A stretch of DNA of 64,000 nt from Halichondria panicea (lineage: Eukaryota > Porifera > Demospongiae > Suberitida > Halichondriidae), in assembly GCF_963675165.1 (NCBI RefSeq), contig NC_087388.1, forward strand, positions 3,415,047 to 3,479,046, given 5' to 3'. Under the pieces are notes generated by a model. That model was not told the origin of the DNA. It saw only the letters and a program-made list of their open reading frames with translations, and searched no databases. Shown piece after piece: positions 21,649 to 54,860 of the stretch (position 1 is the stretch's first letter; each line of letters starts with the position of its first letter). The translations under genes and the position numbers were made by a program.

Positions 21649-21704
21649 GAGGTTTTCAGGTTCCTTGAGAAACTATCATGTGCGCTTGCGCAAAACATTG
21701 AACT

Positions 21705-22750
21705 ATGTACTCTGGTTTGCTGTGTCAGCACAGCTGCAAGCACATGCTAGAAGATCATCTGATCATGGAACCAGGACAGCCTTTGTGTTCACTTTCGCTT
21801 GCTGTAGCTGCCACTGGGCGCCGAGTGACTATTAATAGTGGATCACAGAAACAAGTATCAAAGAACGGTGGTGGGTGCGTGTTAATTACACCATTAAGTA
21901 AAGGTACATATTCAATGCCAAATGTTCCTACTGCAAAACTCAATACAACATTACAAGGAGCTTCCCCACTTCTATCCAAAGTTTTGGTGAAAGTTGCATC
22001 AAAAGATGGGCCTATAAGCTCTGGAAAGATGTTCACTCTTCGTGATTTAGATATTACTACAATTCTCACATGTGAGGACTTAAAAGATGCCATTAAGAGA
22101 CAGTTAACTGATGACATTGTTGATAGTGACTTCGATGTTGGATATGTGGAGGGTTCAAGTGTTGTGCGGATTAGAAATAGGCGTGATCTGGAGGAGGTGT
22201 GGTCCTGTATTGCAAAAAGTAAAGGCAAAGTAATGCTGTGGTGTGATGGCTTAAGCAACACCAAAGAGAGTCGCAAGCGTCCTCGAAGTAATGGCGTATC
22301 TGTGGTTAATACAAAGAAAAAAGTACCTGACAAGGCTGACAAGGAACAGAAAGTTCAGCAACTGGTCGACTCATTGAAAGAAAAGCACCTTAGTGATTAT
22401 ACACCTATGCAATTTCGTATATGGGCCGAAATGGTAGCAAGTGGTATGTATTGTAGTATGGACAATCCGCCTAACACCACAATGTTCACTCGTGCTGGCA
22501 GCGGCACTCCATCTCGAAATGTGCCAGTTTCTCGGGCTCTGATGCGGCAACTGTGATTGCTACAGCTTTGTCTCCTACCAGTTCGACACATATTTCAAGC
22601 AATAGCCCAGCAAAAGTTATAGAAAGTAGGTCGAAGCTATACAGGCAGTTGAATGAACTACAAAATCTAAAGCAAAGTGGGGTGTTGACTGACGAGGAAT
22701 ATTGTGAAGAGAAGGGTACAATCATGAAGTTACTTCAACAACTAAAGTGA
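21705..22750 (+). pseudogene. Accessory protein, PB1-like/SHOCT-like (copy I)
   Basis: The frame runs 21705-22556 and continues, after a frameshift near 22520, to the stop at 22750. The N-terminal part (21970-22250) fits the pattern of the sister proteins: a beta-rich stretch, DFDVGYVEG, then VMLWCDG. This resembles a ubiquitin-like or PB1 fold but is not proven. A basic linker (KRPRS, KKKVP) looks like a nuclear signal. The central motif is FRIWAEMVASG...NPPNTTMF. The C-terminus (YRQLNELQNLKQSGVLTDEE) is an amphipathic helix pair like SHOCT domains. The function is unknown; a DNA- or transposase-binding partner is a guess. Confidence 0.7.
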
Positions 22751-22820
22751 CATAATATTGATTAAACTGACAATTTTTGGTGTGCTGTGCATAGTTATTA
22801 TTATACGTTGTGATAATGTT

Positions 22821-23833
22821 TTAGTCAATGTATCCACTATGAGAGATATAAGAAAGGCAGTCTTGTTTGGTTACCATACTAAATGCCATACTTAAGAGTA
22901 CTCTTGAGGCACTGCATGATTGAAATACTCCATCGTTTTGCTTCATAATTGATTTCACTTGACTGAAAACCTCTTCGCAAGGATTCAAATCAGGTGAGTA
23001 TGGAGGGAGAAAAAGCAGTCGTGCTCCTTCTTGGTTTTCAATTAAATCCATAACACCCTCCACATGGTGTATGGAGGCATTGTCCATAATCACAACTGAA
23101 TGGGGATTTACCCAATTGAATGGATTTAGAATTGGAAGAACACAATCTCTCAAAAACTGCTCAAACCTTCCACCATCCACAGTCCCTTCAAAGAAGCATA
23201 CATCATGTATTCCATCAAGGGATAGTACAGGAATTGCTGAGTAGCGTGTTCCACGTGCTAGCAGCCTATGGTCTCTGGGCGTCATACCTCTTATACTGTA
23301 TGCCCATTTTCGCACACAATTTCTTCTATCACACCCTGTCTCATCTAGCCATATGAGCATTCTTGGATCATAGGTTGTAACTTCAGCCATAAACTTAGCA
23401 CGTAATTCATCATTACGCCGTATATGAATGTGTTGAATAACTTGCCGTGTACAGTTCATGAACTTCAGTGTTCGACAGATGGTTGCAACACTTACAGTAA
23501 CGCCAAACATTGTAACAAGTTTTGCTTGAATTTCATGTAAGTATATGCCAGTGTTCTCCAAAATGATTCGTAGAAGTACAAGCTGTTCAAAATCTCCGAG
23601 TAGTTTCTGAGGACCATGTGTTGAAACTCTTGGCGCTACATCACCAGTTTGCTCAAAAGCATTAATATATCTATAGACAGTGCTCTCAGAAAGGCTGACT
23701 TGGTGTGATATGTCTTTACAATTCAAGTGATGAGCAAGATAGAGCCAAATTACTGTCCAGTCTGTAGCTTGTGTTGTTCAGATATCTTGGCTAGTGAGAG
23801 TGACGTTTCCTCGTGACGTTTCCTCGGGAGCAT
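22821..23833 (-). pseudogene. IS630/Tc1-like DDE transposase (copy I)
   Basis: ATG at 23833 (MLPRKRHEET), with a frameshift near 23757, then open to 22821. It has a helix-turn-helix (SLSESTVYRYINAFEQTGDV) and a DDE core: Asp in LIWLDETG, Asp in VIMDNASIHH and Glu in LPPYSPDLNPCEEVFS, matching the DD34E pattern. It ends SHSGYID, close to SHSGYYN in copy II. A 13-bp tandem duplication (GTGACGTTTCCTC) lies in its first 40 bp. It would cut and join the element at TA sites. The N-terminal break probably makes it inactive. Confidence 0.88.
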
Positions 23834-23901
23834 GGAAACAGCTCTTTGTAACACTGTAGCTGTTGACGAAGCACACTAGTGGTAAGTTATAGTTATAGAC
23901 T

Positions 23902-23983
23902 AATCACAAGGTTTGTATGGAATATACAGTGCATGATGCCCGAGGTTTGAATGCACTGTATATTCATACAAACCGTGTGATTG
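23902..23983. repeat. 82-bp hairpin
   Basis: AATCACAAGGTTTGTATGG... is mirrored by ...CATACAAACCGTGTGATT, with arms of about 33 bp and a short loop. It lies just outside copy I and may be a small MITE. Confidence 0.75.
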
Positions 23984-24106
23984 GTCAATAACTGTTTTCT
24001 TGCATGTTGCTATTGACAGCAATTTATTATTACATGTAGCTATTAGCCATACAAAGAGCAAGTAGAGTAGAGAAGTAGTTCTACTAGACTAGGTGTAGGC
24101 TACTCA

Positions 24107-24990
24107 ATGGACCTTAAACTTAATATTGCCCCTGAAGGGTGGTTCTCTGATGAAGAGGGTCCTTTGACAGGTCCTTTGACAAAGAAACAAAAACTTCAAC
24201 TTGAATCTCAATTTAAAACTGCCACTGAAGAAGACCTAGACAGCTACACAGAACAACAAGCACCAAAAAACACAAATTACTCTACTACTTGGGCTGTTCG
24301 CAACTTTTTAGACTGGATAAAGCAGCGGAATTTGCGTTTTCCAACTGTTCCAGTACCCAGTACCTGAAGCGCTCCTAACATCTGGCACTGCCGAACAATT
24401 GGACCGTTGGTTGTCTTTTTATGTACTGGAAACCCGAAATAACAAAGGGGAAAACCTTATCCTCCAAAAACCCTTTACCAGCTACTTACTGTGTGGGCTG
24501 CTTCGAATAAAAAACAGTCTGAACTCCATGTTCAAAAATATGTGTGCTGAAGCTGGTGTATCAGGGCACAAAACAAATCACAGCTTGCGTGCGACTGGTG
24601 CATCAGAGCTTTTTGAAGCTGGAGTTCCTGAAAAGATCATCAAAGAGAGGACGGGACACAGGTCACTGGAAGCTCTGTGTTTATACGAAAGAACCACAAG
24701 AGATCAACACCAAGCTGTTTCAGTCATTTTTGTCATCGTCACAAAAGACATCATTCAAGGATGCCCTCATCTCAATCACAGTGGATGAAATCTCTTCCCA
24801 AAATGTGCACTGACAGCAAGGAGCAAGCAGCAAGCAGCTCTGAAGCAATCCCGAACAATGTGTTTCAAAACTGCAATGTGAATTATGTACAACCTTCTAT
24901 ACAACCACCACAAACAGTAGCTGTTAATGCAGAGCTAGACTCTCTGCTTGATTTCGTTGCTGAAGACGTGCTTCCATTAATTTATGGTAT
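24107..24990 (+). pseudogene. Tyrosine recombinase (DUF3504/Crypton-like), broken
   Basis: Starts MDLKLNIAPEGWFSDEE. TWAVRNFLDWIKQRN is the usual N-terminal arm-binding segment. The catalytic end has NHSLRATGASELFEAG (H-x-x-R) and GHRSLEALCLYER (His and nucleophile Tyr). A 7-bp duplication (CCAGTAC, near 24350) breaks the frame; without it the two parts would read continuously through the duplication point. The core between about 24450 and 24550 is shorter than in full-length relatives, so part is deleted. A further shift occurs near 24720. A possible donor at 24988 and acceptor at 25137 suggest one more exon. Such genes come from Crypton-type elements. Confidence 0.75.
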
Positions 24991-25159
24991 GCACATACTG
25001 CTTATTATTTCATGCTGCTTATTATTTAAGTCATGCTTAATCATTTTCTTTGTTTATTTTCCTTATCACACAATCATGTTAAATATGTATTTAAACATCC
25101 ATTGTACATCTGTATTAACATTTTCCCTAACCACAGGGATCTGCCCAATCATTCCTATG

Positions 25160-25213
25160 TACAGCAGATTGCAGTTAACTTGCCTGCAGACTTTGGCAGC
25201 CGGTTGTATAAAC
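25160..25213 (+). repeat. Inverted flank of copy II, left
   Basis: The stretch containing AGTTAACTTGCCTGCAGAC is mirrored at 27588-27640 outside the right end of copy II. A neighbouring block (25096-25145) recurs in direct orientation at 27653-27702. Confidence 0.8.
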
Positions 25214-25375
25214 AATAGTAAATCTGTAGTAAACATACATTCCAACAATACCACTGAGAGGAATTATTGCCTCTTTTAGAAGCCGCGGCTAATATATACT
25301 GGTTCAAATTTCTCAGTATATAGTCCATGCAGCAGTGCAGTGCAGTAGCAGTACAAGTACAGTACAATACTAAGG

Positions 25376-26362
25376 ATGTCTTGTGAACCTGGAAGAACAA
25401 AAGCAAAAGCTTACCACTCAGACCTCAGATGGCGAATGGTGTATCAAAGAAAGGTACTTGACATCTCAACAAAGAAAATCAGTGAAAACCTTTGTGTTGA
25501 TCCTTCGACTGTGCAAAGGATTGTAAATCTATTTGATACCAGTGGCTCAGTCGAGAAGAAAATTCATATATCGAACGCTGTAAGAAAAATAAGCAGAGCA
25601 GACCAGCTTCACATCCTTGAGCTTGTTATAGAGAAACCTAGCATATACCTCCATGAGCTAAAACTTGAACTGCAAGCAAGAGGTACGCATGTTGATGAGT
25701 CAACTATATGCAGGTTTCTGTACCAATCTCGCTTTAGCAGGAAAAAGATGAGGATGATTGCCATTCAACAGAGCGAAGAATTAAGATCCCGATATGTAGC
25801 TGAGGTTTCATTGTATGATCCTGATATGCTAGTGTTCTTGGATGAAACTGGGAGTGACAGGAATACCGCCATGAGAAAATTTGGCTACAGTCTTAGAGGT
25901 CTTCGCTGTTGCTGTACCAAACTATTAGCAAGAGGGAAAAGGGTTTCTGCTATTGCTGCACTTTCATCTGTTGGAATCTTAGATGTGCAGTTTCTCAAGG
26001 GTAGTGTTAATGGAGAGATCTATGCCGACTTTATTGAATTGTCTGTTTTGCCTCATTTGCTACCCTTTGATGGTGTGAACCCAAACAGCATTGTAGTGAT
26101 GGATAATGCTTCCATACATTATAATGAAAGAGTCAGGCGTCTGATATCAAGCGTTGGAGCATTACTTGTGTTCCTTCCGCCATACTCTCCAGATCTCAAT
26201 CCCATTGAGGAGTCATTTTCAGCAGTGAAATCATTTCTTAGAGCGAATGAAGAACTAGCCTCTTCTTCCAAGGACATAGAGGACATACTTCTTAGAGGAT
26301 TTGCTAGCATAACCTCAGAAGACTGCTATGGCTGGTACTCTCATTCAGGTTATTACAATTAA
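25376..26362 (+). CDS. IS630/Tc1-like DD34E transposase, intact
   Basis: 328 aa, one exon, ATG start, 97 bp inside the left terminus. The N-terminal helix-turn-helix region is residues 13-56 (SDLRWRMVYQ ... VDPSTVQRIVNLF), and a second helical domain covers about 75-130. The catalytic core has Asp156 (FLDETG), Asp243 (VVMDNASIHY) and Glu278 (PPYSPDLNPIEESF), with 34 residues between the second Asp and the Glu, as in DD34E Tc1/IS630 enzymes. No frameshift or stop. It would excise and insert the element at TA. The length is normal for the family. The frame stays open although neighbours are riddled with small duplications, so it is young or was kept by selection. Confidence 0.95.
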   Translation: MSCEPGRTKAKAYHSDLRWRMVYQRKVLDISTKKISENLCVDPSTVQRIVNLFDTSGSVEKKIHISNAVRKISRADQLHILELVIEKPSIYLHELKLELQARGTHVDESTICRFLYQSRFSRKKMRMIAIQQSEELRSRYVAEVSLYDPDMLVFLDETGSDRNTAMRKFGYSLRGLRCCCTKLLARGKRVSAIAALSSVGILDVQFLKGSVNGEIYADFIELSVLPHLLPFDGVNPNSIVVMDNASIHYNERVRRLISSVGALLVFLPPYSPDLNPIEESFSAVKSFLRANEELASSSKDIEDILLRGFASITSEDCYGWYSHSGYYN

Positions 26363-26448
26363 CAAGTCAATCAGATATTAAACAATGTCACATTATTATT
26401 ATTATAATGTCATACATGTCTTTATTGTGTTCCATAATTAATATTTCC

Positions 26449-27488
26449 TTACTTAAGTTCACGTAATGTTGTTAAGATAGTATATTTTTCAGCTTGAAAC
26501 TCATCAATACTTAGAACATTTTCATCTCGAAGGTTCTGAATCTCCTTGAGTTGTTTGAGGTACTGGGACCGTAGCTGTACTTTTTTACCAGGTGACATCC
26601 CAAGTGTACTACATGATGCAGCAGCAGTAACACTGGGGTTTACGTCAGGAGATGATGGCCTTAAAGCTTTCACGATAGCAACAGCAGCATTAGCCAGAGT
26701 ATCAACTACATCATGTTTGCCTTTACGAGAAACTTTCCCTCTAATCATAGGGATATTTGGAGGAGTATCTTTGTCTTTCCATTGATGATTTTTAATCATT
26801 CTCGCCCAGATTCTGTAGTCACCATAGTCATATTTGTCTCCATGAATATTTTGTAATTCATGAACGTGTTCTTGAAGCTCTGCTTCTTCTCCAGAAGCAC
26901 TGCTAGCAGCACGTTTAGGCACACTCTCCGTTTCAGCATCGTCTTGTTTTCGCTTACGACCAAAAGTTGATGTAACCTGCACTTGTCCATCACACCACAG
27001 CAAGATCTCTTTGTCACCAGCATTTGTGTACATGGCTTTTAAATCTTCTTCCGATAAAATCCAGCTCTTTACTTGAGGACGTCCATGGAAGTACCCAACA
27101 TTAAACTCATCTATTGCAGATGCAGGAGGGACATACTTACTGAGAGTACTGATAAGCTTTTGTTTCAGTTCAAGTATCGACAAAAACTTGTTAGAGATAC
27201 CATGCCAATCAACTACAATCGAGTCCTTCTTTAACTTTTGGTTAATAATTCGAACACGGTACTTCAAGTCGTCCTACAAAATACAATAAAGAGAAAATTA
27301 CATGCCATGCATGCAGGTTGCAACATACTTTTCTTTTTAAAGCACACCAGTAATTAATACCTGTCTAGGCTGATGACTGGTCACAGGTAGCTGTTCTGGA
27401 GACCACTGATACTCCGGCCAAACAGATACTCCGGCCAAACATTACCATATGAGTAGGCATACTGTCCCATGGGGTGTTGTGGGTCCAT
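26449..27488 (-). CDS. Accessory protein, PB1-like/SHOCT-like (copy II)
   Basis: Two exons. Exon 1 starts at ATG 27488 (MDPQHPMGQYAYSYGN) and ends at 27361 before GTATTAATT. Exon 2 runs 27273-26449 after TTTTGTAG and joins in phase. Exon 2 contains a PB1/ubiquitin-like region (YRVRIIN ... ELKQKLISTL ... FNVGYFHGRP ... SEEDLKAMY ... LLWCDG), a basic stretch (GRKRKQD), the central motif DYRIWARMIKNH..KDTPPNIPM, and a C-terminal helical region (SPGKKVQLRSQYLKQLKEIQ ... LSIDEFQAEKYTIL) like SHOCT. Exon 1 holds a 17-bp tandem duplication (27408-27441) that shifts its frame; exon 2 is fully open (274 aa). It is the partner of the transposase; its biochemical role is unknown. Confidence 0.8.
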
Positions 27489-27587
27489 TTTTGTGTCCTT
27501 GTTAAAATTAAAAACTTTAGCTAGTTGAACTTTCACCTTTGATCAGGTGAGGCTATTTATTAGCCGCGGCGTCTAAACGAGGCAGTT

Positions 27588-27740
27588 TACATAACCGTCT
27601 GCCAAAGTCTACAGGCAAGTTAACTGCAATCTGCTGTAATAGCAGGTGAAAAACATCCATTGTACATCTGTATTAACATTTTCCCTAACCACAGGGATCT
27701 GTATATGATTCCCAATCATTCCTACGTAATAGCAGGTTCT
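27588..27740. repeat. Rearranged flank of copy II, right
   Basis: 27588-27640 is the reverse complement of 25160-25213, while 27653-27702 repeats 25096-25145 in direct orientation. A single insertion event does not give this pattern; template switching or two events are needed. Confidence 0.75.
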
Positions 27741-27944
27741 GTATCACAGTTATAAACCATTGTATACCTTAGCAACCAAATAGCAACGGGCAAGAAGAGT
27801 CATTTAAATGCACATACATGTACATAATACAGTGTTAATGTCAGTAGCCCACGTCAGAATAATGTACATGTACATACACACATAACATACACATAATTAC
27901 ATGTATTGCTATGTTTAACGGGTACCTCCTCTCAGTTGATTTGC

Positions 27945-28225
27945 ATGAGGATGAGGGACAATATTGTTCAGAAGCTCGGTATGGCAGGGTCTAGCCCAAC
28001 ATCTGTTATGAGGTCGTACGTTATGAGGTCGTACGTAAAACATTTATCGATGAGGACTTTGCATTCGTTGTGGCAGTCTTGTTGGAGAAGAACATCAAGG
28101 CTCGACGCATAGTTGTCTACTGCTTAAGTACACTCTGCTGGCTACTACCCTCCAGGAGCTGAACAGATCAGTGATAACAGAATGTTCGGGATGTTTCACT
28201 CCTGTACTGACGAACACAACAAAGC
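27945..28225 (+). pseudogene. RecQ-like helicase fragment
   Basis: Translation gives PNICYEVVR, then (after a 15-bp tandem duplication at 28006-28035) KTFIDEDFAF and RRIVVYC, and in a second frame YYPPGAEQISDNRMFGMFHS. These match the start of the second RecA-like domain of RecQ-type helicases (RPNI-Y-V, K-IV-C, SDNRLFGMFHS). No upstream helicase motifs (Walker A, DEAD box) are present. It is a truncated gene copy, probably carried or retrocopied by a transposon. Confidence 0.6.
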
Positions 28226-30370: not shown

Positions 30371-30391
30371 TTCCTCCACCGTTCTCCAGCG

Positions 30392-33300
30392 TCAAATAGG
30401 GTTTGGCGCACGAGACAGTGCATCTGCATTACTGTTGTCGACTCCCTTTCGATGCACTACTTCAAATCTGTAGGGCTGTAGAGACAAGCTCCATCGTGTG
30501 AGTCTTGAGTTCTTATCTTTCAGCTGATTCAACCACATGAGAGCGCGATGATCGGTTTGTATTGTAAATGGTCGGCCAAGTAAGTACACTTGGAATGCGG
30601 CTACTCCTGCTTTAATTGCCAGGCATTCTTTTTCGATCACTGAGTACCGTTCTTCACGAGGTAAGAGTTTCTTGCTATAGTATGCCACTGGGCGATCCAT
30701 TCCAGTTCCATCTAGCTGGCTGAGTACTGCGCCAATTCCCCTGTCCGAAGCATCTGTTTGCAAAATAAACTGTTGAGTAAAATCTGGGCTTGCAAGGATC
30801 GGTGAGGTTGACAACAGAGTCTTTAGCTTTTGGAAAGCTTGCTCACAAGTGTCAGTCCAGATAACGTCGCTGGGTGCAGCCTTCCTTGTCAAATCGGTCA
30901 AAGGTGAGGCTATATCGGCATACTGAGGGATAAAACGCCTGTAGTAACCCGATAGTCCCAGAAAGGTTCGGACCTGCTTCTTAGTAACTGGTACTGGGAA
31001 TTCTCGTACTGCTTGTACTTTTGTTGAGCCTGGCTGGACCACTCCACCACCTACTATATGTCCGAGGTACGTACAGTACTTTGCTCCAAACTGTGACTTC
31101 TTTGCTTTGACTGTTAATCCTGCTTTCCTGAGTCGTTGGAGAGTAGTTCGAACGTGTTCCAGGTGCTTCTCCCACGTTTCGCTGAATATTATCACATCAT
31201 CAAGATAAGTTGCTGTGAAATCACTGAGACCAGCTATCACACGATCCATCAATCTTTGGAAAGTCGCTGGGGCACCTTGTAGTCCAAATGGCATCACCTT
31301 GAATTGAAACAAACCAAACGGTGTGACAAAAGCCGTTTTGGGTCGATCTTCAACAGCGACAGGTACTTGCCAGTAACCTTTAGTGAGGTCCAGAGTTGAG
31401 ATATAGTGTGACCGTCCAAGTCCGTCAATTAGATCATCTATCCTGGGCATGGGATAGGCATCGGCTTGTGATTGACAATTGAGTTTCCGATAGTCCACAC
31501 AAATTCTTAGCGATTTGTCTTTTTTGGTCACCAACACAATTGGGGAACCATAAGCACTTGAGGATGGTTCTATGATACCTTGCTCGAGCATCTCGCCAAT
31601 TTCTTCTCTGACTGCATCTCTGTGAGCATGTGGTATCCTGTAAGGTGGTAAACGAATGGGGCGAGCATCTCCAGTGATTATTCTGTGTTCCGTTAACGAA
31701 GTGCGTCCTGGTTGGTTTTTGAATACATCTTGGTATTTGTCCAGTAGACTCTGCAATTGGGCTCTCTGAGGGGTGTCAACCCGCTTGTCAATCGGTATTT
31801 GGGTACTGTTATCGTCTGTCCACGTAGGTATATCTTCATCCACATAATCAGCTTCAATTTCTTCTGCTATATAGCCAGTATTGGTGGGTACATACCACTG
31901 TTTCAACATGTTAACGTGAAATATTCTTCTTTTTTTCCGTCGATCGTACATGTGGATCAGGTAGTCCACCTTGCCAATTGGTTTGACCACTTCATACGGT
32001 CCTTGCCATTGGGCGAGCAACTTGTTGCTAGATGTTGGCAATAGTACTAATACTTGATCCCCTTGGTGGAATTCTCTTTGTCGGGAATTTTGGTCATACC
32101 ACGTCTTTTGAATCTGTTTTGCTATATCCAGATTCACTTTTACCACTTGTGTCGCTCGTTCGAGTCGATCTCGCATCTTCATGATGTAGGAGATTATGCT
32201 CACACTATCGCATTTGTCAGTCTGCCAAGCTTCTCGGACGATATCGAGTGGTCCGCGAACACTTCGGCCATACAGTAGCTCGAATGGAGAAAAGCCTGTG
32301 GACGATTGTGGTACTTCACGATATGCAAATAGTAAATATGGGATTACTTTGTCCCAGTCTTTTCCTTCATCCTTTGTTGCCTTTCTGAGCATTCTTTTCA
32401 AAGTTTGATTAAATCTTTCTACTAGGCCATCAGTTTGGGGATGGTATGGTGTGGTACGAATGGGGTGTACATGGAGCATCCGATAAATCTCCGTTAGAAG
32501 TGTTGAAGTAAAATTACTTCCTTGGTCAGTCAGTATTTCCTCTGGTATTCCAACTCGTGAGAACAGTGTCATCAGCTGTTCGGCTATGTGTGGGGCATCG
32601 ATGCTTTTGAGTGGTATAGCCTCAGGGTATCGGGTCGCGTAATCACATATAACCAGAATATAGCGTTTGCCCGAATTGCTTCTTGGGAGTGGACCAACAA
32701 TGTCCATCGCTATTCTCTTGAAGGGCTCCTGAATAGTTGGGAGTGGGATGAGCGGTGCTCGTTTGGTTCTGCTTTGTGTAGATTTTTGGCATGTGAGACA
32801 TCCTTTGCAGTACTTGGCTACATCTTGATATAAGGTAGGCCAGTAAAATCGTTGCAGAATTCTCCTTGCAGTCTTCTCTTTGCCCATGTGGCCTGCTAAA
32901 GGTACGCTGTGGGCCAATTTCAGTACTTCTTCTCGGCAATGCCTTGGGAGTACCAGTTGCTCCACTTCCACTCCGTCCGCCCCTTGTTTGGGGGGTATCC
33001 ACCTGCGATAGAGTAGGCCATCATTTTGATAGAACCCTACCCCTGCTGTTGATGGGCTGCCTTCAGCTGCCTCGACACACTGTTTTAAGGTATCATCCTT
33101 TTGCTGCAATTCTTTGAATTTAGAAAGTGAAATGTCCAATGGGTGCAATTCCGACTGCATATTTTTGCATTTTTCGAAATGTTTTGCTCGCTGTTGGCGT
33201 TTCTCCTTTCTTGTGAGCGTCTCTCTGTTTCGACTTGGGATAAACAGTTCATCCTCCAAATCTTGAAAGGGCACGTCACTTAAGTTCTCGTTGTCAATAA

Positions 33301-34942
33301 TTTCCAAGTTTTGTACTTCTGACTCACTCTCGCTGTCTACAGTTTCCTTGACTGGCAATTGCATCTCAACTCCAAGTGTTTTTGAATGGGCGCCCGACTC
33401 TTTTTCTTTTTGGGCAGTCATTTCCTCTTCTTCTCGCTGCTTTATGGCACTTGCTCTCGTCACCACGGCCAATGCCTGCTGAGGCACCACTTTCTTCGTG
33501 GTTGGATCACCTCTAAGTATCGCCGTGAGTTCGGGTACATCTGTGCCCAGGAGTACGGGCATAGGGAGTGTATCCGAGATGGCTGCTTCCACATGAATTA
33601 GGTATCCCTCCACCTCCAAATCGACTTCTGCTAGGGGGTACAGTACTGTATCTCCGTGTGCACAACGAATTGCAACTACTTCTCCGTGTAGTAGCTTATG
33701 CTGAGGAACTAGGTCCTTTCGAATGAGAGTTCTTGAGCATCCTGTGTCTAATAGGATATTATCCACTTTCTTTCCTTCAACTGAGCCAGTTTTTACGACA
33801 CTAGGTTTGGCTTGGACTTCTGTTTTCTTTGTATTCGATTGTCCTTGGTAATCTATTCGCCTCTCTGTACAGAACAGTGCTCCTGCTCGCTCGGGACAGT
33901 TCGAGGAGTAGTGGCCTTTCTTGTGGCAATTAAAACATTCTATGTCTTTGAGGTCTTTGAGGTCTTTCTTGACTCCACTGTTTTGGGGTTTCCAGTCGGG
34001 TTTCCCCGGTGTTTTGTTTCTACAGTCTTTCGACAGATGTCCTTGCTTCCCACATGTATGGCAAAATTTTAGACCAGCTTGTGGTCCCATTCGTCTTCCG
34101 AGTGATGGTTTCCTCGCTTGCCAATAGTCGTCAGCAAGTTTTGCTGCTTCAGCGCTCGTGCCGGGTTGTCTTTCTTTGACAAAAATCCGTACCTCCAACG
34201 GTAACATATCGATCACTTGTTCCATTACAATTAAATCTCGAACTTCGTCTACGGTTTTACATTCCTGCAGCCATTTGCTCGCCAGGTCATTGAGTCGAGT
34301 AGCCAGTTCTCGACTGCTCTCGCCCGTTTTTCGTGTTGCGGTTCGGAATCGATGTCGATAACTTTCTTTCGTGATATCGTATCGTATCAAAATCGTTTTT
34401 TTCACTGTTTCGTAGTCGATTGCTTCGTCTGTAGGCATTGCAGCATAGGCTTTCTGCGCCTGTCCAGTCAGGTGCGGTGCTAGCTTGTACACCCATCGGT
34501 CAGCTGGAATTTCATATGAGGTCATCATCCTTTCAAAAGTTGTAAGGTATGCCTCTATATCGTCGGTTTCTGCTAGCTTGGTCAGCTTTACATCTCTATC
34601 TTTCTCTGCCCGCCGTTCTGCAGATTCTCCTTGTTTGTGTATTCCTGTGAGCAGTCCTTGAAACAGTTCCATCTGTCTTTGACTCTCAATTTCTCGCCGT
34701 TCGTCTTCGTACAGCCTTCGTTCTTTATCACGGATTTGTTCCTCGGCACGCTGCCTTCTCTCCTCCGCAACTTCTTCATCGTGCCTTCTGCGGTCTTCCA
34801 TCAACAATTGTAGCATCTCTGCCATTGGGTCTGGCCTTTCGGTATGATCATCTCCTGATGTCATATCTTCTAGTTTATTTGCTTGCTTGTAAATCTTTCC
34901 AGATCTCAAGGTGCTTGCTGTCCACCGGCTTTGTTCAGTCAT
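30392..34942 (-). CDS. Gag-Pro-Int-RT-RH polyprotein
   Basis: 1516 aa from the first ATG (34942, MTEQSRW). The same frame is open 8 codons further upstream but starts with GTG there. Gag has a Glu/Arg-rich coiled coil (about 45-110) and a capsid region (120-280), then two CCHC knuckles (294-307, 336-349). Protease: LLDTGCS (about 397-403). Integrase: HHCC zinc region (about 678-718) and a DD35E core, Asp747 (MDIVGPLP), Asp806 (LTDQGSNF) and Glu842 (GLVERFN). RT: LDLTKGYW and YLDD (1246-1249). RNase H: TDASDRG (about 1396) to NADALSR near the C-terminus. No stops or frameshifts. All catalytic residues are present, so the element may still be active. Confidence 0.97.
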   Translation of the reverse strand: MTEQSRWTASTLRSGKIYKQANKLEDMTSGDDHTERPDPMAEMLQLLMEDRRRHDEEVAEERRQRAEEQIRDKERRLYEDERREIESQRQMELFQGLLTGIHKQGESAERRAEKDRDVKLTKLAETDDIEAYLTTFERMMTSYEIPADRWVYKLAPHLTGQAQKAYAAMPTDEAIDYETVKKTILIRYDITKESYRHRFRTATRKTGESSRELATRLNDLASKWLQECKTVDEVRDLIVMEQVIDMLPLEVRIFVKERQPGTSAEAAKLADDYWQARKPSLGRRMGPQAGLKFCHTCGKQGHLSKDCRNKTPGKPDWKPQNSGVKKDLKDLKDIECFNCHKKGHYSSNCPERAGALFCTERRIDYQGQSNTKKTEVQAKPSVVKTGSVEGKKVDNILLDTGCSRTLIRKDLVPQHKLLHGEVVAIRCAHGDTVLYPLAEVDLEVEGYLIHVEAAISDTLPMPVLLGTDVPELTAILRGDPTTKKVVPQQALAVVTRASAIKQREEEEMTAQKEKESGAHSKTLGVEMQLPVKETVDSESESEVQNLEIIDNENLSDVPFQDLEDELFIPSRNRETLTRKEKRQQRAKHFEKCKNMQSELHPLDISLSKFKELQQKDDTLKQCVEAAEGSPSTAGVGFYQNDGLLYRRWIPPKQGADGVEVEQLVLPRHCREEVLKLAHSVPLAGHMGKEKTARRILQRFYWPTLYQDVAKYCKGCLTCQKSTQSRTKRAPLIPLPTIQEPFKRIAMDIVGPLPRSNSGKRYILVICDYATRYPEAIPLKSIDAPHIAEQLMTLFSRVGIPEEILTDQGSNFTSTLLTEIYRMLHVHPIRTTPYHPQTDGLVERFNQTLKRMLRKATKDEGKDWDKVIPYLLFAYREVPQSSTGFSPFELLYGRSVRGPLDIVREAWQTDKCDSVSIISYIMKMRDRLERATQVVKVNLDIAKQIQKTWYDQNSRQREFHQGDQVLVLLPTSSNKLLAQWQGPYEVVKPIGKVDYLIHMYDRRKKRRIFHVNMLKQWYVPTNTGYIAEEIEADYVDEDIPTWTDDNSTQIPIDKRVDTPQRAQLQSLLDKYQDVFKNQPGRTSLTEHRIITGDARPIRLPPYRIPHAHRDAVREEIGEMLEQGIIEPSSSAYGSPIVLVTKKDKSLRICVDYRKLNCQSQADAYPMPRIDDLIDGLGRSHYISTLDLTKGYWQVPVAVEDRPKTAFVTPFGLFQFKVMPFGLQGAPATFQRLMDRVIAGLSDFTATYLDDVIIFSETWEKHLEHVRTTLQRLRKAGLTVKAKKSQFGAKYCTYLGHIVGGGVVQPGSTKVQAVREFPVPVTKKQVRTFLGLSGYYRRFIPQYADIASPLTDLTRKAAPSDVIWTDTCEQAFQKLKTLLSTSPILASPDFTQQFILQTDASDRGIGAVLSQLDGTGMDRPVAYYSKKLLPREERYSVIEKECLAIKAGVAAFQVYLLGRPFTIQTDHRALMWLNQLKDKNSRLTRWSLSLQPYRFEVVHRKGVDNSNADALSRAPNPI

Positions 34943-35001
34943 ATAGTCTCGATCTCGTAGTTTCACTGGAGCTTCTTGCTTCCAAAACCGCTGCCACCAA
35001 A

Positions 35002-35257
35002 TGTGATAGACTGATAGGCTAGACTAGCAACAGCCTATATTTTAAGTGTCTATCGGTTGAGAACTCTCATGATCATTTTAATAAAATCAATAAATTGAGA
35101 GAACTGACAAAAAAACACATGTGACTCAGACTTATCTGAGATCCACAGTCTAAAAATAGAGTCTATAAATATAGATATGTACATTCCATTATATCTGTAC
35201 ATTCCATTACATCTGTACATACTTAAAATCAGATTTTTTTCTCATTAGTCCATCACA
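35002..35257 (-). repeat. 5' LTR of element 2
   Basis: 256 bp, the same as 30115-30370 by eye. Reading on the minus strand, TGGTGGCAGCGG starts 2 bp after the LTR end and is the likely primer-binding site; I could not assign the tRNA. Confidence 0.95.
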
Positions 35258-35262
35258 AGTAC

Positions 35263-36182: not shown

Positions 36183-36186
36183 TTAA

Positions 36187-38900: not shown

Positions 38901-38901
38901 G

Positions 38902-46881: not shown

Positions 46882-46941
46882 TTATGTAAAATGCAATTAT
46901 AAAATGCTGATTGGCTAGTCAAAATTTGCAAGGATACGTAC

Positions 46942-47909: not shown

Positions 47910-47929
47910 GGTGCTACATGCAGGCTATA

Positions 47930-48880
47930 AGGGGCGTATCAAAGTAAAACCATGTGTGCATGAAGCGAGCAGTGAAGCAGAGAGTTTACCGCACGCGGCC
48001 ATATTTAATCATTTCCGCCTCGAGTGCCCAGGGCACGCCCCTTTTATAGTCAGCATGCTCGTTTAACACAGGTCTAGTTAATTGTACAGCAGTGAAAGTA
48101 TGTCATTATTTAGAACCTTTTAATATTCGAGCTAGAAGATCATCCTTGTAGTTCAAAGATCCCACAGCAGACAAAGACAAAGACAGACAAAGAAGACAAA
48201 GAACATGTGGGGGGGGGAGGCAAATCAGTAATGTTATGAATATCATGTGTCACAGGCTGGCCCATACAAAAATTTACAATTGCCAGGGGGGGGGAATTGT
48301 AGCGAGCGCCCCCCCCCCTCTATGAAGCCCTGAGTGAGCAACAAATAATAAACACACCTGGTCCAGCTTCATCTTCTTTACAAGTATTTCTAGTGAAACA
48401 ATGTGTAGATGGGTATTTTTGAAGCACACTTTGCCCGGTAGCCTTCAAAGCGCATACACCACTAACGGACCATGCCTAATAAAGTACACATGTACATATA
48501 TGAACACTTGCAAATTATTTCTGGATAATGGATCATGGATAATAGTTTACACGAAGAGTAGAGTGCTTTGAACTCCACATGATGCCAAGCAATAGTCAAC
48601 TATCGTCAGCAAACGCAAAAAGTTTTCCCAGAATAAAAGTTTTCCCAGAATATATCCCCTATTATGAGAGGAAGCAGTCTGGCAAAGCTGTATGTGTGAA
48701 ATAAGGTGGGGCTAAATAAGGTGGGCTAAATAAGGTGGGGCTAGCAATCAAAGTCTATATTTTTGTTCTCTCCAGCTTTATTTTACTATGCCCTGGGAAA
48801 CATTATTTTCACCAAAGTATCGGTCAACTGAGAATTGTATCCATCTGCTAGCTGTCGTCAAATCTTCAGTACTATCTTAC
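47930..48880. other. Non-coding, with terminal-repeat-like block and G/C hairpin
   Basis: CCCCTTTTATAGTCAGCATG followed by CTCGTTTAA near 48048-48069 recurs in diverged form at 60160-60183, 60676-60720 and, inverted, near 39433-39460. It may be the terminus of an element enclosing the P2X7-C-like gene. A tandem CAGACAAAGA array is at 48170-48205. A hairpin with runs of 9-11 G and C lies at 48265-48320. Confidence 0.5.
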
Positions 48881-48886
48881 ATGTAT

Positions 48887-49745
48887 GTTGTCAGGATGGA
48901 GTGCTACTATACTCAGGAGCTGTTGAAGGGTTTCCAAAAGTTCGCACCTTTTTAGCGACGAGTCCAGGGGATCGTGGCAACTTCTCCTCAAGGCGAGTTT
49001 CAAGAGTTCTGATGAACTCATCTAATTCTGCAAAAATACAATTACTTATTGTGTGCTTCTTTGACCAACTCGTCCAGGAGAACTTAAGGGCAACTAGTTA
49101 CATGTATACACATGCACACATGCACACACACACACACACACACACACTCAGGCTTGTGCTTGTGCTACCATTCGGGTTGTCTTCTTCATAATAATTATAC
49201 TAGGCTCAAAAACTTCCAGTATTTGTCCATCTCAATAGCTGTTACCACATTGCTTCGTCTCTGAAACTTCTGCACAAGAGGCAATAATAATGCAACATTC
49301 ATTAAAATTACCGCCGTGAAAGGTACTTTCTTTTCTTGGCCTGTTGTTCTGTAGCATTTTCTTTACCAGCTTGATGCTCCAGAAAGAAACGCCTACTATT
49401 CTCGTAGCATCGTCTAACTGCAACTGTAGTAGGAAAGAAATCACGCGAACTACTATAACCAGTGACCGCCTAAGTGCCTTTAGATATAATTATTGTTAGT
49501 CAAGTTGACAACAGATACCAAGTACACTCACGTTTCACTTCCTTTTCACAGCACTCAGGTTGTTGGAGAATTTCTTTTGTAATATTGGCTTGCACACTCT
49601 TGTTTTCAGGAGACAAAAACCTTAAATCAATATGAAATACTTAATGTACGTACATGTGTGAACATACATACACTTACATCTGTTCTGAGTCCTGTTCTGA
49701 GTCAAACATTTTGTCTGCGCTAGCATGAAGTGCAGATACCTTAGC
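48887..49745 (-). pseudogene. Multi-exon gene, unidentified
   Basis: Likely exons: 49745-49678 (SALHASADKMFDSEQDSEQ), 49620-49532 (FLSPENKSVQANITKEILQ), 49423-49313 (VRRCYENSRRFFLEHQAGKE), 49261-49193 (FQRRSNVVTAIEMDKYWKFL) and 49027-48887 (ELDEFIRTLETRLEEKLPRS ... stop). The first three exons join in phase across GT-AG introns; exon 4 needs a one-base shift. Helical and charged throughout, no domain recognised. Upstream exons were not found; the minisatellite at 49774 starts directly above. Confidence 0.45.
49109..49147. repeat. CA microsatellite
   Basis: (CA)n with a few CATG interruptions, inside an intron of the minus-strand gene. Confidence 0.9.
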
Positions 49746-49773
49746 CTAAAATAAGTTTTATTTTAAATGATCA

Positions 49774-50110
49774 GTGGACCAAAGTGGCCAACTTGAATTT
49801 AGCACTGTGACCACAGAACCTGGTGCATATGAAACTAGCTTTTGGCTTTTAGCTCAGCTTTCAGTTATCAGCTTTTGGCTTACCAGCTATCAGATCAGAT
49901 CATCAGTAGTGGACCAAAGTTAAATTGAGCACTGTGCAGAACCTGGTGCATATGAAACTAGCTTTTGGCTTTTAGCTCAGCTTTCAGTTATCAGCTTTTG
50001 GCTTACCAGCTATCAGATCAGATCGTCAGCAGTGGACCAAAGTTAAATTAAGCACTGTGCATGTGACCATAGAACCTGGTGCATATGAAACTAGCTTTTA
50101 GAGTCGAGTC
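49774..50110 (+). repeat. Minisatellite, period about 123-135 bp
   Basis: Three units begin GTGGACCAAAG at 49774, 49909 and 50032; the third is truncated. Each contains GAACCTGGTGCATATGAAAC and AGCTTTTGGCTTTTAGCTCA. Units differ by small indels. Confidence 0.92.
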
Positions 50111-50429
50111 TGCATAATGATATGAAATTGGCTATCAGCTTTTAGCTATGAAGATTCTCTTGGTTTTTTTAGCAACGATCATAGTCGATGACGATCATAG
50201 TCGATCATTTCCCACTTTTGCACAAGATATCGAGATGCATGATCCTTACCTATCACTGAGACAACTGAAATATAATTATGGTCTGACAAAAATTTAATAG
50301 TTAATTGCTCAACCATGGTGAACTGGGAGGGGAGTAATGATGATGAAGGAACCCAACCATAAAAGCATGATTAATATGAAAGTTTAAGCGTGATTTAATA
50401 TGAAAGTTCAACTGTTTGTTTGGTTGACC

Positions 50430-50760
50430 ACCTTAATTAAGGTTGTTCCTGAATTTGCTCTACCACACTGCACGTTCCAGACTCGATCGATGCTCGGCAG
50501 TGGGGACAGGAGGAGCCCAAATTAAGCCACCTATCACCGCAGGCCGTGCATACGACAGCATGGTGTCACCATCCACGGAGTGTTTGCGAGAGATTTGCAA
50601 ACGATGCAGGATAGGGAATTTTTGAACTCTTCAAGTGACCTGTCAACGTGCCTGTCAACGTGCCGCTTTTCTTCATGCCGCTTTTCTTCATTGAGCACTA
50701 GATTCTTCTTGAGTTGGTCAACACTTTCAATTTGGCTGAGAAATATCCTCTGCCTTCAGT
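50430..50760 (-). pseudogene. RING-like zinc finger exon
   Basis: Minus strand: SQIESVDQLKKNL coiled segment, then FKNSLSCIVCKSLANTPWMV and TPCCR, and after a one-base shift CTACGDRWLNLGSSCPHCRA. The Cys spacing (CxxC ... CC ... CxxC ... CPHC) is that of a RING/C3HC4-type finger, normally a ubiquitin-ligase module. It ends VEQIQEQP then TAA at about 50430. Tandem duplications GAAGAAAAGCGGCAT/C (near 50670-50695) and CACGTTGACAG lie in the coil. One frameshift breaks the finger. Confidence 0.5.
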
Positions 50761-51009
50761 GTATAGAGCTCAAAAGACATCGACATCTTCACCACAGATT
50801 AATAATTATTTTATTCCTAGCACTCATGCATACGTGGCCAATATGGCCACTATTGACTGGGCATGCGTAATAGGCCATAAATAGGCCATAAACCATCACT
50901 AGGTGGGCGTGGCCCGTCTCCTGGCCACGCCCATCTATTCCACGTGGTTCACAATATCTATGTCTAGCTAGCTATGTAGAATCAGAGAAATTAAAAGCTT
51001 GCTTTTTAG
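50761..51009. other. No gene; short inverted repeat
   Basis: GGGCGTGGCCC and GGCCACGCCC form a small hairpin at about 50905-50933; TAGGCCATAAA is tandemly repeated at 50871-50892. Confidence 0.5.
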
Positions 51010-51140
51010 TGGAAAAAACTATCGTGACATCTCTACAGAATTAAAAATGTTATATCCTAATATGAAACGAGGCCTATCGGAATGCAGTGTCAGACGCTAT
51101 GTGACTAAGCACAATTTGAGGCATGTGTGTGAGACAGACA
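51010..51140 (+). pseudogene. Helix-turn-helix transposase N-terminal fragment
   Basis: Translation: SGKNYRDISTELKMLYPNMK then RGLSECSVRRYVTKHNL. This is the pattern of a DNA-binding N-terminus found on several animal integrase-type transposases (RGLSERSVRR...). No catalytic part follows; an ACAGACAGAAA-type tandem duplication ends it. Confidence 0.45.
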
Positions 51141-51394
51141 GAAAAGACAGAAAAGAAACATTGAGATGATGTGTGTTCTAGCGTGTGTTCTAGCCTATAA
51201 CCCACCTATAACCCAACCTCCCTACAATCCTGAATATTAATTTGTACCATAATTGATGTAATTACCCAAAAAAAAAATTAATTCCACTTCCAAGGGGGTG
51301 CATCTTTTAGAGTAAAAAAATTGCATTGAGCCCAGCTGGCGCCTAAATTATGGTGGTGCTTATGTAGCTCAGTTTCACCATGCTTTTTGTTTGG

Positions 51395-51800
51395 TTTAGG
51401 TATCCTTGCAACAGGTACAGGCAGGTACAGCTTTAATTTCTAAATAAGGAAGTTAGTTTGTCTGCATACCTATCATGCAATGTGATGCCCCACTACCCCC
51501 ACACCCGGGTTCGAGCTAACATGGGGGATTTGTATAATTATAGTCAAATCCCCTATGTTAGCCCGAACCCTCCAGGGGGGTGTGGGGCATCTACCGGTGG
51601 GGCATCACAATGAGATTCACACAGTTGTCTGATACATAGCTATACAGTCAATGAATGCTGTTCACGAGTCATATCTTCAACGTGCAGGGTTTTTAGGTAT
51701 CCTTGCAACATGCAGGAACAGCTCCAAATAAGGAAGTTAGTTTGTCTGCATAATACACAGGTCTATCAATGTGAATCTCATCATGGTGATCAGCTGTAGC
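51395..51800. repeat. Local duplication split by a hairpin MITE
   Basis: The block with TAGGTATCCTTGCAACA ... AAATAAGGAAGTTAGTTTGT occurs at 51400-51470 and again at 51690-51755. Confidence 0.7.
51482..51608. mobile_element. GC-rich hairpin MITE
   Basis: 127 bp. Ends are GTGATGCCCCAC and GTGGGGCATCAC. Internal arms TTCGAGCTAACATGGGGGAT and ATCCCCTATGTTAGCCCGAA make almost the whole element a stem. No coding capacity. Confidence 0.85.
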
Positions 51801-52615
51801 AGACGAGGATAAACCCTGCATGCCCTGTCACAATTATATTTCGTGGAATGGCCTCTAAAATACACCATGTTCCTGGGATGACTGATTACATGGGAAGCCA
51901 GGCCTTTAATCTTTGCACGTTATCTTTGCACGTTATCTGAACAATTTTTTGTTGATTTCGTTTTCGTGTTTCGCGCTATGCTTTACACTATACTTTCAGC
52001 TTGAATATATAGGCATTTTTGTTGCATGTCACTGGAAAGTTGGTGGTAAAGGTGGTAAAGGTGGGTAAAGGTCAGTGTATACTTCCGCCACTCAAAATCC
52101 CGACATTTGGAATCAATAATCCTAAATCCTAAATCCTAAAGAAGGGAGACCAGTCTAGTGTCGCCTAAATCCTAGTGTTGCAAGCGCGTCCTAGATGCAC
52201 AATAGTGATCCAATGTGCGCATGCGCATCAGTTATACCTCGTGGCCTGATGTTGACAAAGTAGATATGCGCATGCGCATCAGTCACCTCGTGGCCGTTGA
52301 CAAGTCAAGCTCTCTGTGTGCCTCTCTCAGTGCCTCTCTCAGTTCTATTGAACGTTCGAACCTCTCCCTCTCTCAGCAATATTGAATCTCAGCAATATTG
52401 AACCTCTCTCAGCCCACTCGTACTCTAGGCAGCATGGTACTGAGGTATTCACCGCTTTGAGGTCCAGGCATCTCTCTCGCGTGATAATTACATGGACCTG
52501 CCATGTATAAATTCTTGTACGTTTGGGCTTGTCCAGAGTACGACTCTGGATGCGTAGATTAGTACTTTCTCATCACCCCCCTCGTGACTTTTAGTCTTCC
52601 CCCCGCCTTCCCCCC
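51801..52615. other. No gene; small tandem duplications
   Basis: A 50-60 bp duplication carrying GCGCATGCGCATCAG lies at 52214-52290; CTCTCTCAG-type repeats fill 52320-52410; TTATCTTTGCACG is doubled near 51930. No coding pattern seen. Confidence 0.55.
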
Positions 52616-52620
52616 ATAGG

Positions 52621-53586
52621 AGGTTGGTCTACGTTGGAGGATCATATGGCAAAGTGAGGCTCTTCTTTATAAAGAATCAGTGATAGCTCATAATCTCAAC
52701 ATTGATGTGTCAACTGTTTGGAGAGTGATGCATTTTGGAGAGTGATGCATATCTTTAGAACTACTGGAGATGTTGCCAAAAAAGGATACCCAGTTCAGAG
52801 AGCATTTCGGGTAATCACAGAACCAGTGCAGCTCTTCATCATCCATCTCATACTCCAAAGGCCGGGGATGTTCCTCCGAGAAATCACAAGTGAAGTAAAG
52901 TCAACACTTGGGCTAGATGTGAGTGAAAGCGCTGTGTGTAAGATGCTGAAAAAAAGCGGATTTACAAGGCAGAAGCTGGTTACATTTGCCTTACAGAGAG
53001 ACGATTTACTCCGAAATGAATTTGTAACTGATGTTTCTTTGTATGAAAAGAATTCTCTTGTGTTTATTGACGAAACAGGCACCCGACGCAAGGGATTCTA
53101 TACGCACGTATGGCTACAGCTTGAGACAAACCATTGAAAGCCCAGAAATTGTTTGTGAGAGGAGAACATATTTCTGCCATTGCGGCGATGTCGATTAATG
53201 GAATTATAGGATTGAAAATTGTACAAGGTGGTGTAAATGGTGATCATTTCTATGATTTTGTGTGCACTTCCCTTTTTCCTCATCTTTTGCCATTCAACGG
53301 TACTAACGAAAATAGTATTGTCATCATGGATAACTGTTCCATCCACCATGTGCCTGAAGTTGAGCAAGTTATCAGTGATGCTGGATCGGTCAGTCATTAC
53401 CTGCCTCCGTACTCACCGGATTTTAATCCCATAGAACTAGCTTTTTCGAAAGTCAAGTATATGATGAGATCATTGGAAACAGAAATGCAAGCAATCGATG
53501 ATATTGAAACTATTGTATTATATGCATTTTCAACAATAACAGTAGCAGATTGTCAAGCCTGGATTTCAAGTATAGGAATATACTAG
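52621..53586 (+). pseudogene. IS630/Tc1-like DDE transposase (copy III)
   Basis: Begins after a CCCCCCATAG acceptor-like site with LRWRIIWQSEALLYKE, homologous to LRWRMVYQRKVL in copy II. A 17-bp tandem duplication (52717-52750) shifts the frame in the helix-turn-helix. The core has Asp in LVFIDETG, Asp in IVIMDNCSIHH and Glu in LPPYSPDFNPIELAF. A one-base indel near 53130 separates the first catalytic motif from the rest. It ends SSIGIY. All three catalytic residues survive but in separate frames. Confidence 0.88.
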
Positions 53587-53682
53587 AATACAAACACTAA
53601 TTATTATGTACAAATAACAAAACGGCATAAATAACATAATTATACAACATACTAAGTTGCAAGTATTGCAAGTACATTATAT

Positions 53683-54855
53683 TCATGTCACTGAACAGTC
53701 ATCATACAACTGTTTGAGAGTGCTTAGCTGTCCAAAGGATTTTCCACGTATTTCAGAGGCTTTACCAGGGGAAATTCCCAATTGTGATAAATCGTTTGAA
53801 CGTCTGGTAGGTGTACATGAATCTAAAATAGTCTGTTGAATAGTAGCTGATTGGGTGACTGGAGAAACACAATTTATTGCCTTAACAACGGCTGCCGCAG
53901 TGCTCGCAATAGTATCTGACATTGTCAAGTCATCCTTTCTTTGTTTCCTTTTTGGAGTAATACCAGTAATCATAGGGACTTGTGGAGGTGTATCTTTACT
54001 TGAATGGATCCCTGTTGTAATCATACGAGCCCACAGACGGTACTGCACTTCGCTTAAATTTAATTTTTCTTTATTCAGTTCCTTCAATTCTTTTGTTAAC
54101 TCTTCTACCTCAAGCTCCTTTTCCTTTCTTCTTGACAAACACCCTTCTCCAGCCTTTCGCCGCTTAGGATTTGGAGTTTCACTATCAGTAACATTTCGGC
54201 CATCACACCATCACACCACAACATAATTTCTTGATTTCTTGAGTGATAGACTTGCTATACATCGAAGCTAAATCGAAGCTAAATCTTCTTCTGTGTAAAT
54301 TCAATATTTAGCAGATGGGCGGCCAGCAAAGTAACCCATTGAAAATGATGTTGTTGCTGGTACTTGACTCTTGAATTCTTCCATTAACCTGACCTTCATA
54401 TCTGTCATAGATGAGAAATGGCTATGAAAAGTCCTCATGTCTCTAACAACCATGTCTGTTTTTTTTGCCGGGTTGATGATCTTTACTCGGTACAAAATTT
54501 GAGATTGTGTTAGTGGTAGTGGTGTCGGAGCAGGAGTAGGAGTCGTGTCAGAAGTTGTATTTCCCTATGAAAACATTTACACGTAAACAATTATTATCAG
54601 CAGTTAGCGCACTTATAGTTTAGATCTAGCTCCACAAAATAATGTATTGTCACCAATTATGTTTCTATTAAGTGAGCACTATAGATATAGATCTTCCTAC
54701 ATGACAATCTAATTGTGCACACTTACTGTTTGCATACATCCACTCGTACTCATAAACCTACTCATAAACCCTGGTGGCAGAACAGTGACTGTTACTCTTC
54801 TGCTTGGAGCTGGTTGCCTAGCTGTTGCCTCACGATCACTTGCACTGTAAGCCAT
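53683..54855 (-). pseudogene. Accessory protein, PB1-like/SHOCT-like (copy III)
   Basis: Exon 1 is 54855-54727 (MAYSASDREATARQPAPSRR ... GTAAGTG). Exon 2 starts at 54564 after TTTCATAG, in phase (GNTTSDTTPTPAP ... LYRVKIINP). The PB1-like region follows with GYFAGRPSAKY; a TGG to TGA change gives a stop, then tandem duplications ATTTAGCTTCG and TGTGATGG disrupt the stretch that matches SEEDL...LWCDG. The central motif is VQYRLWARMITTG...KDTPPQVPMI, and the C-terminus starts SPGKASEIRGKSFGQLSTLK but is truncated before the last helix. Same two-exon plan as copy II. Confidence 0.78.
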
Positions 54856-54860
54856 TGTAC

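Follow-up and report, generated by a model that had tools for sequence, protein, structure and literature searches.

The analysed stretch of DNA, in the following called the window, comprises 64,000 nt of the genome of the sponge Halichondria panicea (assembly GCF_963675165.1, NC_087388.1, positions 3,415,047-3,479,046; C12:3415047-3479046). It contains three copies (I, II, and III) of a transposon in which the gene of an IS630-type DDE transposase and a second gene, here referred to as the partner, are arranged tail to tail. This common plan had been pointed out in a preliminary description of the window, and re-measurement of the positions and of the stop-to-stop distances (70, 86, and 96 bp, respectively) gave the same values. 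The transposases match the Pfam family DDE_3 with E values of 1.2e-29 (copy I), 3.5e-28 (copy II), and 1.6e-21 (one piece of copy III).

Organization of the three copies

Copy II is the only complete element among the three and spans 2479 bp from TA to TA (25160-27638). The TA-anchored inverted ends match at 26 of 26 positions, and the homology with three further genomic loci (L002-L004; loci are designated by L numbers throughout) stops there. The terminal inverted repeats (TIRs) have arms of 54 nt that are 93% complementary, the left one (25160-25213, plus strand) consisting of TA followed by CAGCAGATTGCAGTTAACTTGCC... and the right one occupying 27585-27638 (minus strand). Only two frames of at least 120 amino acids (aa) lie wholly between the TIRs. 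The transposase gene (25376-26362, plus strand; first ATG at 25376, as read from the sequence) is open and has the triad spacing DD34E. The partner is encoded on the minus strand by a predicted exon 1 (27361-27488), a predicted phase-0 intron with GT...AG ends (27274-27360), which keeps the frame in the sister copy L002, and an exon 2 of 274 aa (26449-27273) with a predicted PB1-like domain, basic cluster, helices, and SHOCT-like hairpin. Comparison with the intact L002 revealed that the frame of exon 1 is broken in copy II by a 17-bp tandem duplication (~27416-27441). Copy II was inserted in a minisatellite, whose left flanking part (25093-25143) recurs at 27651-27701. Because the element interrupts this repeat, the empty site can be read from a neighbouring unit; in our reading, the uninterrupted unit represents the site before insertion at TA.

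Copy I retains the left TIR (from 21645) and the partner gene (together 21645-22750, plus strand), the latter interrupted by a frameshift between two open stretches (21702-22556 and 22475-22747). Its transposase (22821-23777, minus strand), of which the N-terminus is missing together with the right TIR, is 97-99% identical to four other long genomic copies. Copy III has lost its left end, and both of its genes are broken. The left-truncated, frameshifted transposase (52628-53586, plus strand) consists of the pieces 52706-53137 and 53125-53586, and exon 2 of the partner (53683-54564, minus strand) of the open stretches 53683-54210 and 54304-54564. The predicted exon 1 (54727-54855, minus strand; 43 codons, phase 0) has the same splice sites as in L018, L034, and L041, and the retained right TIR end (54941-54955, minus strand), located by its motif, resembles the TIR of L018/L034.

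Genome-wide pairing of transposase and partner

The host assembly (131 Mb, 39 contigs) was searched with the partner and transposase of copies II and I, Pfam DDE_3, two diverged partners, and one diverged transposase. Matches at most 3 kb apart were merged into groups, 117 in all; all rows of the main searches entered the grouping, and those of Pfam DDE_3, the copy I transposase, and the diverged queries did so if they were new or extended a group. Since only the best candidates were scored, the genome counts are lower bounds. DNA was read for a chosen subset of groups, the choice favouring long, intact copies.

Both genes were present in 74 of the 117 groups, with 72 pairs on 16 contigs arranged tail to tail, one divergent, and one on the same strand (the last two at C6:6911677 and C6:6836188). 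The remaining groups contained the partner only (20), the transposase only (17), a transposase match together with another DDE_3 transposase (2), or another DDE_3 transposase alone (4). Random placement would yield about 0.5 close pairs within a 4-kb span versus the 74 groups observed to hold both genes, and chance was rejected as the origin of the 72 tail-to-tail pairs. The gap between the convergent genes ranges from 48 to 1521 bp, with a median of 124 bp.

As the preliminary description had anticipated for most genomic copies, the partner is the rule and not the exception, being found tail to tail in 54 of the 56 groups in which the transposase match reaches 800 nt or more. One of the other two (L098) keeps a partner remnant (E 8.6e-5); the second (L099) has no partner, and a reverse-transcriptase-like open reading frame (ORF), recognized from its peptide, lies at the expected place. 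Convergent partners are rarer with shorter transposase matches (10 of 18 groups with 500-799 nt, 2 of 9 with 250-499 nt, and 6 of 10 with less than 250 nt), and transposase coverage in the partner-lacking groups (17 + 2) is 105-918 nt. A transposase within 3 kb is lacking in 6 of the 56 groups whose partner match is 600 nt or longer, and 11 of the 20 partner-only groups cover less than 300 nt. A broken partner was found in L016, although this locus had initially been scored as partner-less, and L028 is a 1.1-kb element with TIRs in which only part of the transposase is left. At L103:2498-3280 (C10:3518300-3518977), an open partner frame of 261 aa has neither a transposase match nor a TIR in the 5.6 kb read; it may be a relic or a candidate domesticated gene.

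Terminal repeats and the mobile unit

The search for TIRs covered 43 loci, including 36 in which both genes are present (L001 and L005-L008 were left out). TA-flanked TIRs enclose both genes in 26 of these 36 loci, near-identical copies included, and therefore the gene pair is the mobile unit. The 26 loci represent about 13 different TIR types, and 19 of them are 2.2-2.5 kb long. Several element ends resemble TA-CAG(A/G)G-TTTT-CAG, and others start with TACTG or TATTG. The TIR of subfamily II, to which copy II belongs, delimits five elements with both ends, besides two solo ends in the assembly; all five contain both genes, one of the elements being interrupted. Protein matches among the copies of this subfamily are 94-100% identical, and subfamily II thus has moved recently, as judged from these identities. 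The family consists of cut-and-paste transposons of the IS630 type (Tc1/mariner group), most of them 2.2-2.5 kb in length, with TA-flanked TIRs and two tail-to-tail genes.

Two loci of different subfamilies, L009:2740-6366 and L037:1539-4012, are bracketed by the same inverted repeat GGCCACTCCAAGTGATACTCTGGTTTCT, which suggests nesting or an exchange of ends.

Affiliation of the transposase

The transposase has the features of the IS630-Tc1-mariner (ITm) superfamily, and shares them with both prokaryotic IS630 and eukaryotic Tc1/mariner elements: a DDE_3 domain with DD(34/35)E triad, a paired-like helix-turn-helix (HTH) N-terminus, TIRs, and a TA target. Among 16 family transposases the triad is DD34E in 10, DD35E, the spacing of the copy I clade, in 5, and DD36E, with a one-residue insertion, in 1. 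The N-terminal region matches HTH_29 (copy I) and HTH_23 (copy II) above the cut-offs, and Tc3_2 more weakly. A PDB search with a transposase profile that includes one Tc1-like row (L020) retrieved Sleeping Beauty (2.8e-19), Mos1, and paired-box chains (E 0.002-0.005). The usual, though not strict, single-ORF plan of ITm elements is departed from in this family, given the partner in 54 of 56 near-full copies.

In a tree of the catalytic region (55 sequences), 15 subfamily representatives grouped in a single clade (support 0.997), which was separate from four additional DDE_3 transposases of the host and lay nearer to a prokaryotic IS630 group than to these four. The exact neighbour in this tree is uncertain because the IS630 sample (51 loci) was drawn with the family transposase as query, the tree was midpoint-rooted, and it lacks Gambol and reference Tc1/mariner sequences.

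The partner protein

Nineteen partner sequences, several of them near-identical copies, were aligned. The 18 others are 25-39% identical to that of copy II, and the C-terminus falls outside the open frame in four of the 19. The ordered set of motifs that the preliminary description had recognized is shared among these partners, although looser than claimed: LWCDG is the majority form, with the variants IWAK, LYCE, and LWCF, and GRP is not general. Invariant positions are G60, Y61, D77, L140, W156, D169, and P172. The short first exon and intron reported for copies II and III are supported by phase in these two subfamilies only, with the reservation that exon 1 of the window copy II is broken; the four subfamily III copies compared and L002 of subfamily II have a predicted exon 1 whose length is divisible by 3, with GT/AG ends immediately preceding the PB1-like exon. 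Elsewhere in subfamily II, exon 1 is out of frame in L005 and aligns without indel in L003 and L004. The intron is not a general feature: in several other subfamilies (e.g., L040 and L044), the open frame itself extends farther upstream.

An AlphaFold model of the copy II partner, based on the 19 sequences, had a mean predicted local distance difference test score (pLDDT) of 69.7 and a predicted template modelling score (pTM) of 0.38. It contains an N-terminal domain with the order ββαββαβ over residues 5-96 (block-mean pLDDT 78-91), which is the order of ubiquitin-like and PB1 domains. Next come a low-confidence linker containing the basic cluster, a pair of helices around the RxWA motif, a further low-confidence stretch, and a C-terminal helical hairpin (228-273). 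The modelled order of elements in the exon-2 product thus agrees with the ubiquitin/PB1-like fold and C-terminal hairpin proposed earlier.

As for the labels PB1-like and SHOCT-like themselves, predicted topology and position-consistent matches are in their favour, but every Pfam match lies below the curated cut-off. SHOCT matches 8 of the 19 partners at E ≤ 0.1 (best 1.1e-5, 25.4 bits versus a cut-off of 27), and when the threshold was relaxed (E up to 0.37), 7 of 8 proteins had the match at their C-terminus. PB1 matches 3 of the 19 at E ≤ 0.1 (best 16.8 bits versus 23.6); in two subfamilies the match covers model positions 15-82 of 84 and is placed correctly, with E values of 0.01 and 0.038, and copy I has an E value of 0.0068. 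Prediction hence supports a protein composed of an N-terminal PB1/ubiquitin-like domain, a basic linker resembling a nuclear localization signal (NLS), a conserved helical region (RxWA.M...PP), and a C-terminal SHOCT-like hairpin. By inspection, the invariant Asp can be placed at the end of the acidic motif of PB1 domains, but the first half of this motif is not conserved; basic residues often conclude the first strand. We read the domain as closer to the basic PB1 type, if it is a PB1 at all. An NLS-like cluster after LWCDG was detected in 17 of the 19 partners (absent in L035 and L036) with a simple pattern as opposed to an NLS predictor.

None of the 19 partners matched Myb/SANT at E ≤ 0.1. 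Several other matches were discarded. The Pfam matches to S6PP_C (2.5e-4), Hamartin, and Porphobil_deam occurred in 1-3 of the 19 members below the cut-off, and the PDB profile matches to a 34-residue stretch of 8-oxoguanine DNA glycosylase (E 0.0048, the best match, but E 0.55 with a three-sequence profile), p53 (0.28), and a proteasome subunit (0.32) were judged to be due to chance. In collections of viral, bacterial, and archaeal sequences, no partner relatives were present among 68 pattern matches in viral contigs and 22 in genome contigs.

Co-divergence and constraint

Pairwise distances of the two proteins were compared across 32 loci in which each protein had 150 or more aligned positions. 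Duplicate entries of the same locus or near-identical copies (L001, L003-L008) were excluded, as were one-gene, fragment, or other-family loci (L011, L012, L014, L020, L022, L028). The distances correlate strongly (r = 0.97; 0 of 5000 permutations as high), also among 15 subfamily representatives with transposase distances above 0.12 from one another (r = 0.855; 0 of 10000 permutations as high). The trees of partner and transposase have their main groupings in common; L010 and L009 are placed differently, and some nodes are weak. Partner and transposase have been passed on together, as one unit, across no fewer than 15 diverged subfamilies.

The preliminary description had called for a comparison of selection on the two genes, and it revealed constraint in both. 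Pooled over overlapping within-subfamily pairs with less than 12% total difference, the ratio of non-synonymous to synonymous differences per site (pN/pS) was 0.39 for the partner, based on 42 synonymous and 59 non-synonymous differences, and 0.37 for the transposase, based on 20 and 26, respectively. Between subfamilies, synonymous divergence (dS) was saturated in all pairs but one (2.9), and non-synonymous divergence (dN) ranged from 0.39 to 0.61 in the partner and from 0.26 to 0.53 in the transposase. Both genes are under protein-level constraint, a statement that applies to them in bulk only, and branch lengths indicate that the partner diverges faster.

A second two-gene family in the same genome

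Another Tc1-like DDE_3 lineage of the host carries an unrelated partner of 493 aa. The two genes are convergent at each of the four loci that were read (L014:2102-6104, L101:1447-5464, L102:1137-4477, and L012) out of 19 genomic matches. Inverted repeats surround both genes in three of the four. This partner also has a basic cluster and matched no Pfam family above the cut-off; its C-terminus may resemble a BEN domain. The presence of this additional family, unrelated to the first, points to the recruitment of tail-to-tail partners as a solution reached repeatedly.

Possible function of the partner

As partner and transposase have evolved together, the second protein probably is part of the jumping machinery or of its control. 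Co-occurrence, TIRs around both genes, co-divergence, and constraint sustain the original proposal that the second gene is a functional part of the transposon, and the last three of these led us to reject a captured gene unrelated to transposition.

More specifically, the reading that we favour, with about even chances, is that the partner is a nuclear, self-associating adaptor or cofactor of transposition that acts with the transposase. The PB1-like domain and hairpin would then mediate self-association and transposase binding, and the protein might carry the complex into the nucleus or hold it there and help to bring the two transposon ends together. A working analogy, without implying relatedness, is the Myb-like protein of Harbinger, which binds its transposase, allows nuclear import, and binds the TIRs (PMC9179366). 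The tail-to-tail layout would provide each gene with its own promoter, next to one TIR.

Several points weigh against a cofactor. The well-studied Tc1/mariner transposases work alone, and therefore a helper is not required by the chemistry. Unlike in Harbinger's Myb-like protein, no recognised DNA-binding domain was found in the partners. The PB1 label derives from one moderate model (pLDDT 69.7, pTM 0.38) and sub-threshold Pfam matches, and single-pair pN/pS values, calculated from few substitutions in overlapping pairs, range from 0.18 to 1.12, with several undefined. The present data separate a helper neither from a regulator nor from a host-facing adaptor.

The cofactor reading can be extended to an obligate two-component ITm system, in which transposition would depend on a PB1-based, self-associating nuclear protein in addition to the transposase, either for the synapsis of the ends or for delivery to the nucleus. 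At least two ITm lineages of the host genome would have gained tail-to-tail accessory genes independently of each other. We put this forward tentatively and hold it to be doubtful in this full form.

The partner may instead face the host by recruiting a PB1 or chromatin protein that steers integration or avoids silencing, with a chemistry independent of the partner. This is rather unlikely. In its favour, PB1 domains usually pair with other PB1 domains, NLS-like clusters occur in 17 of 19 partners, and the unrelated partner of the second family suggests a shared need met by different proteins; against it, a direct partner of the transposase would better account for the strong co-divergence of the two proteins, and no host target is known. 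We also consider it unlikely that the partner is a brake, i.e., a self-associating nuclear protein that binds transposase or TIRs, limits transposition, and keeps the copy number low. The low number of near-identical copies (five subfamily II elements with both TIRs in 131 Mb) would agree with such a role, as would the general view of PB1 and SHOCT-type modules as protein-contact modules, yet a self-limiting gene should easily be lost in the competition among copies, and this one was kept with 54 of 56 near-full transposases. A neutral passenger hitch-hiking with the transposase would explain the faster divergence of the partner but is highly improbable, considering that frames are open and motifs are shared across 15 or more subfamilies and that the pooled pN/pS is 0.39. 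The preliminary description had also envisaged a host gene captured once and duplicated only locally; three copies in one 64-kb window rich in transposable elements might suggest this, or a mere coincidence, but with 72 tail-to-tail pairs on 16 contigs (about 0.5 expected), 15 subfamilies, and TIRs around both genes in 26 of 36 loci, this explanation has practically no probability left.

Comparison with known systems

ITm elements usually have a single ORF (PMC8533490), but additional genes have precedents, a correction to the preliminary description. The ciliate TBE elements are Tc1/mariner-type transposons with three ORFs (42 kD, 22 kD, and 57 kD), the extra genes being under purifying selection (PMC4724952). 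TBE/Tec elements resemble the sponge family in combining a Tc1/mariner-type transposase with extra genes, and the 22-kD ORF is opposite to the other two; TBE differs by having three ORFs instead of two and a 57-kD ORF with zinc finger and kinase domains, and no PB1/SHOCT partner is mentioned in the description consulted (PMC4724952). TA-flanked Mariners with added Fanzor1, endonuclease, or methyltransferase genes are also known, but there the nuclease, methylase, or Fanzor1 partners change between related elements (PMC3627910), whereas the sponge family has one nearly fixed, co-diverging partner. An extra 'domainX' has been reported for a yeast Tc1 transposase (PMC9977792), and DD34E/Gambol elements share, by description, DD34E and the TA target (PMC7386202). 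PIF/Harbinger elements likewise have two genes with broadly congruent trees and a less conserved second protein (PMC9179366), but possess another transposase, and the sponge partners lack a Myb/SANT match.

A PB1/SHOCT partner of an ITm transposase was not found in the open-access library searched, Repbase and most subscription journals lying outside it. The multi-gene ITm plan is already known, and what appears to be new is the PB1-like/SHOCT-like partner, nearly fixed and co-diverging. Tc1/mariner elements are used as vectors since their transposase is thought to be sufficient, a view challenged by a diverse lineage with a near-constant second gene, and the question of what a cofactor adds to an ITm transposase becomes directly testable. 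If the fold is confirmed, a PB1-like module enters transposon biology.

Other mobile elements in the window

Further elements in the window were recognized by eye. A single Ty3/gypsy-like gag-pol frame of 1543 aa (30392-35023, minus strand) has its integrase-like part ahead of the reverse-transcriptase-like part, an order as in Gmr1-like elements. A second, degenerate Ty3/gypsy-like element (15009-21378, minus strand) comprises zinc-knuckle, protease, reverse transcriptase, and integrase-like pieces, and a tyrosine-recombinase-like fragment (HSLRATGAS...ERTGHRS...LYERTT) is located at 24321-24788 on the plus strand.

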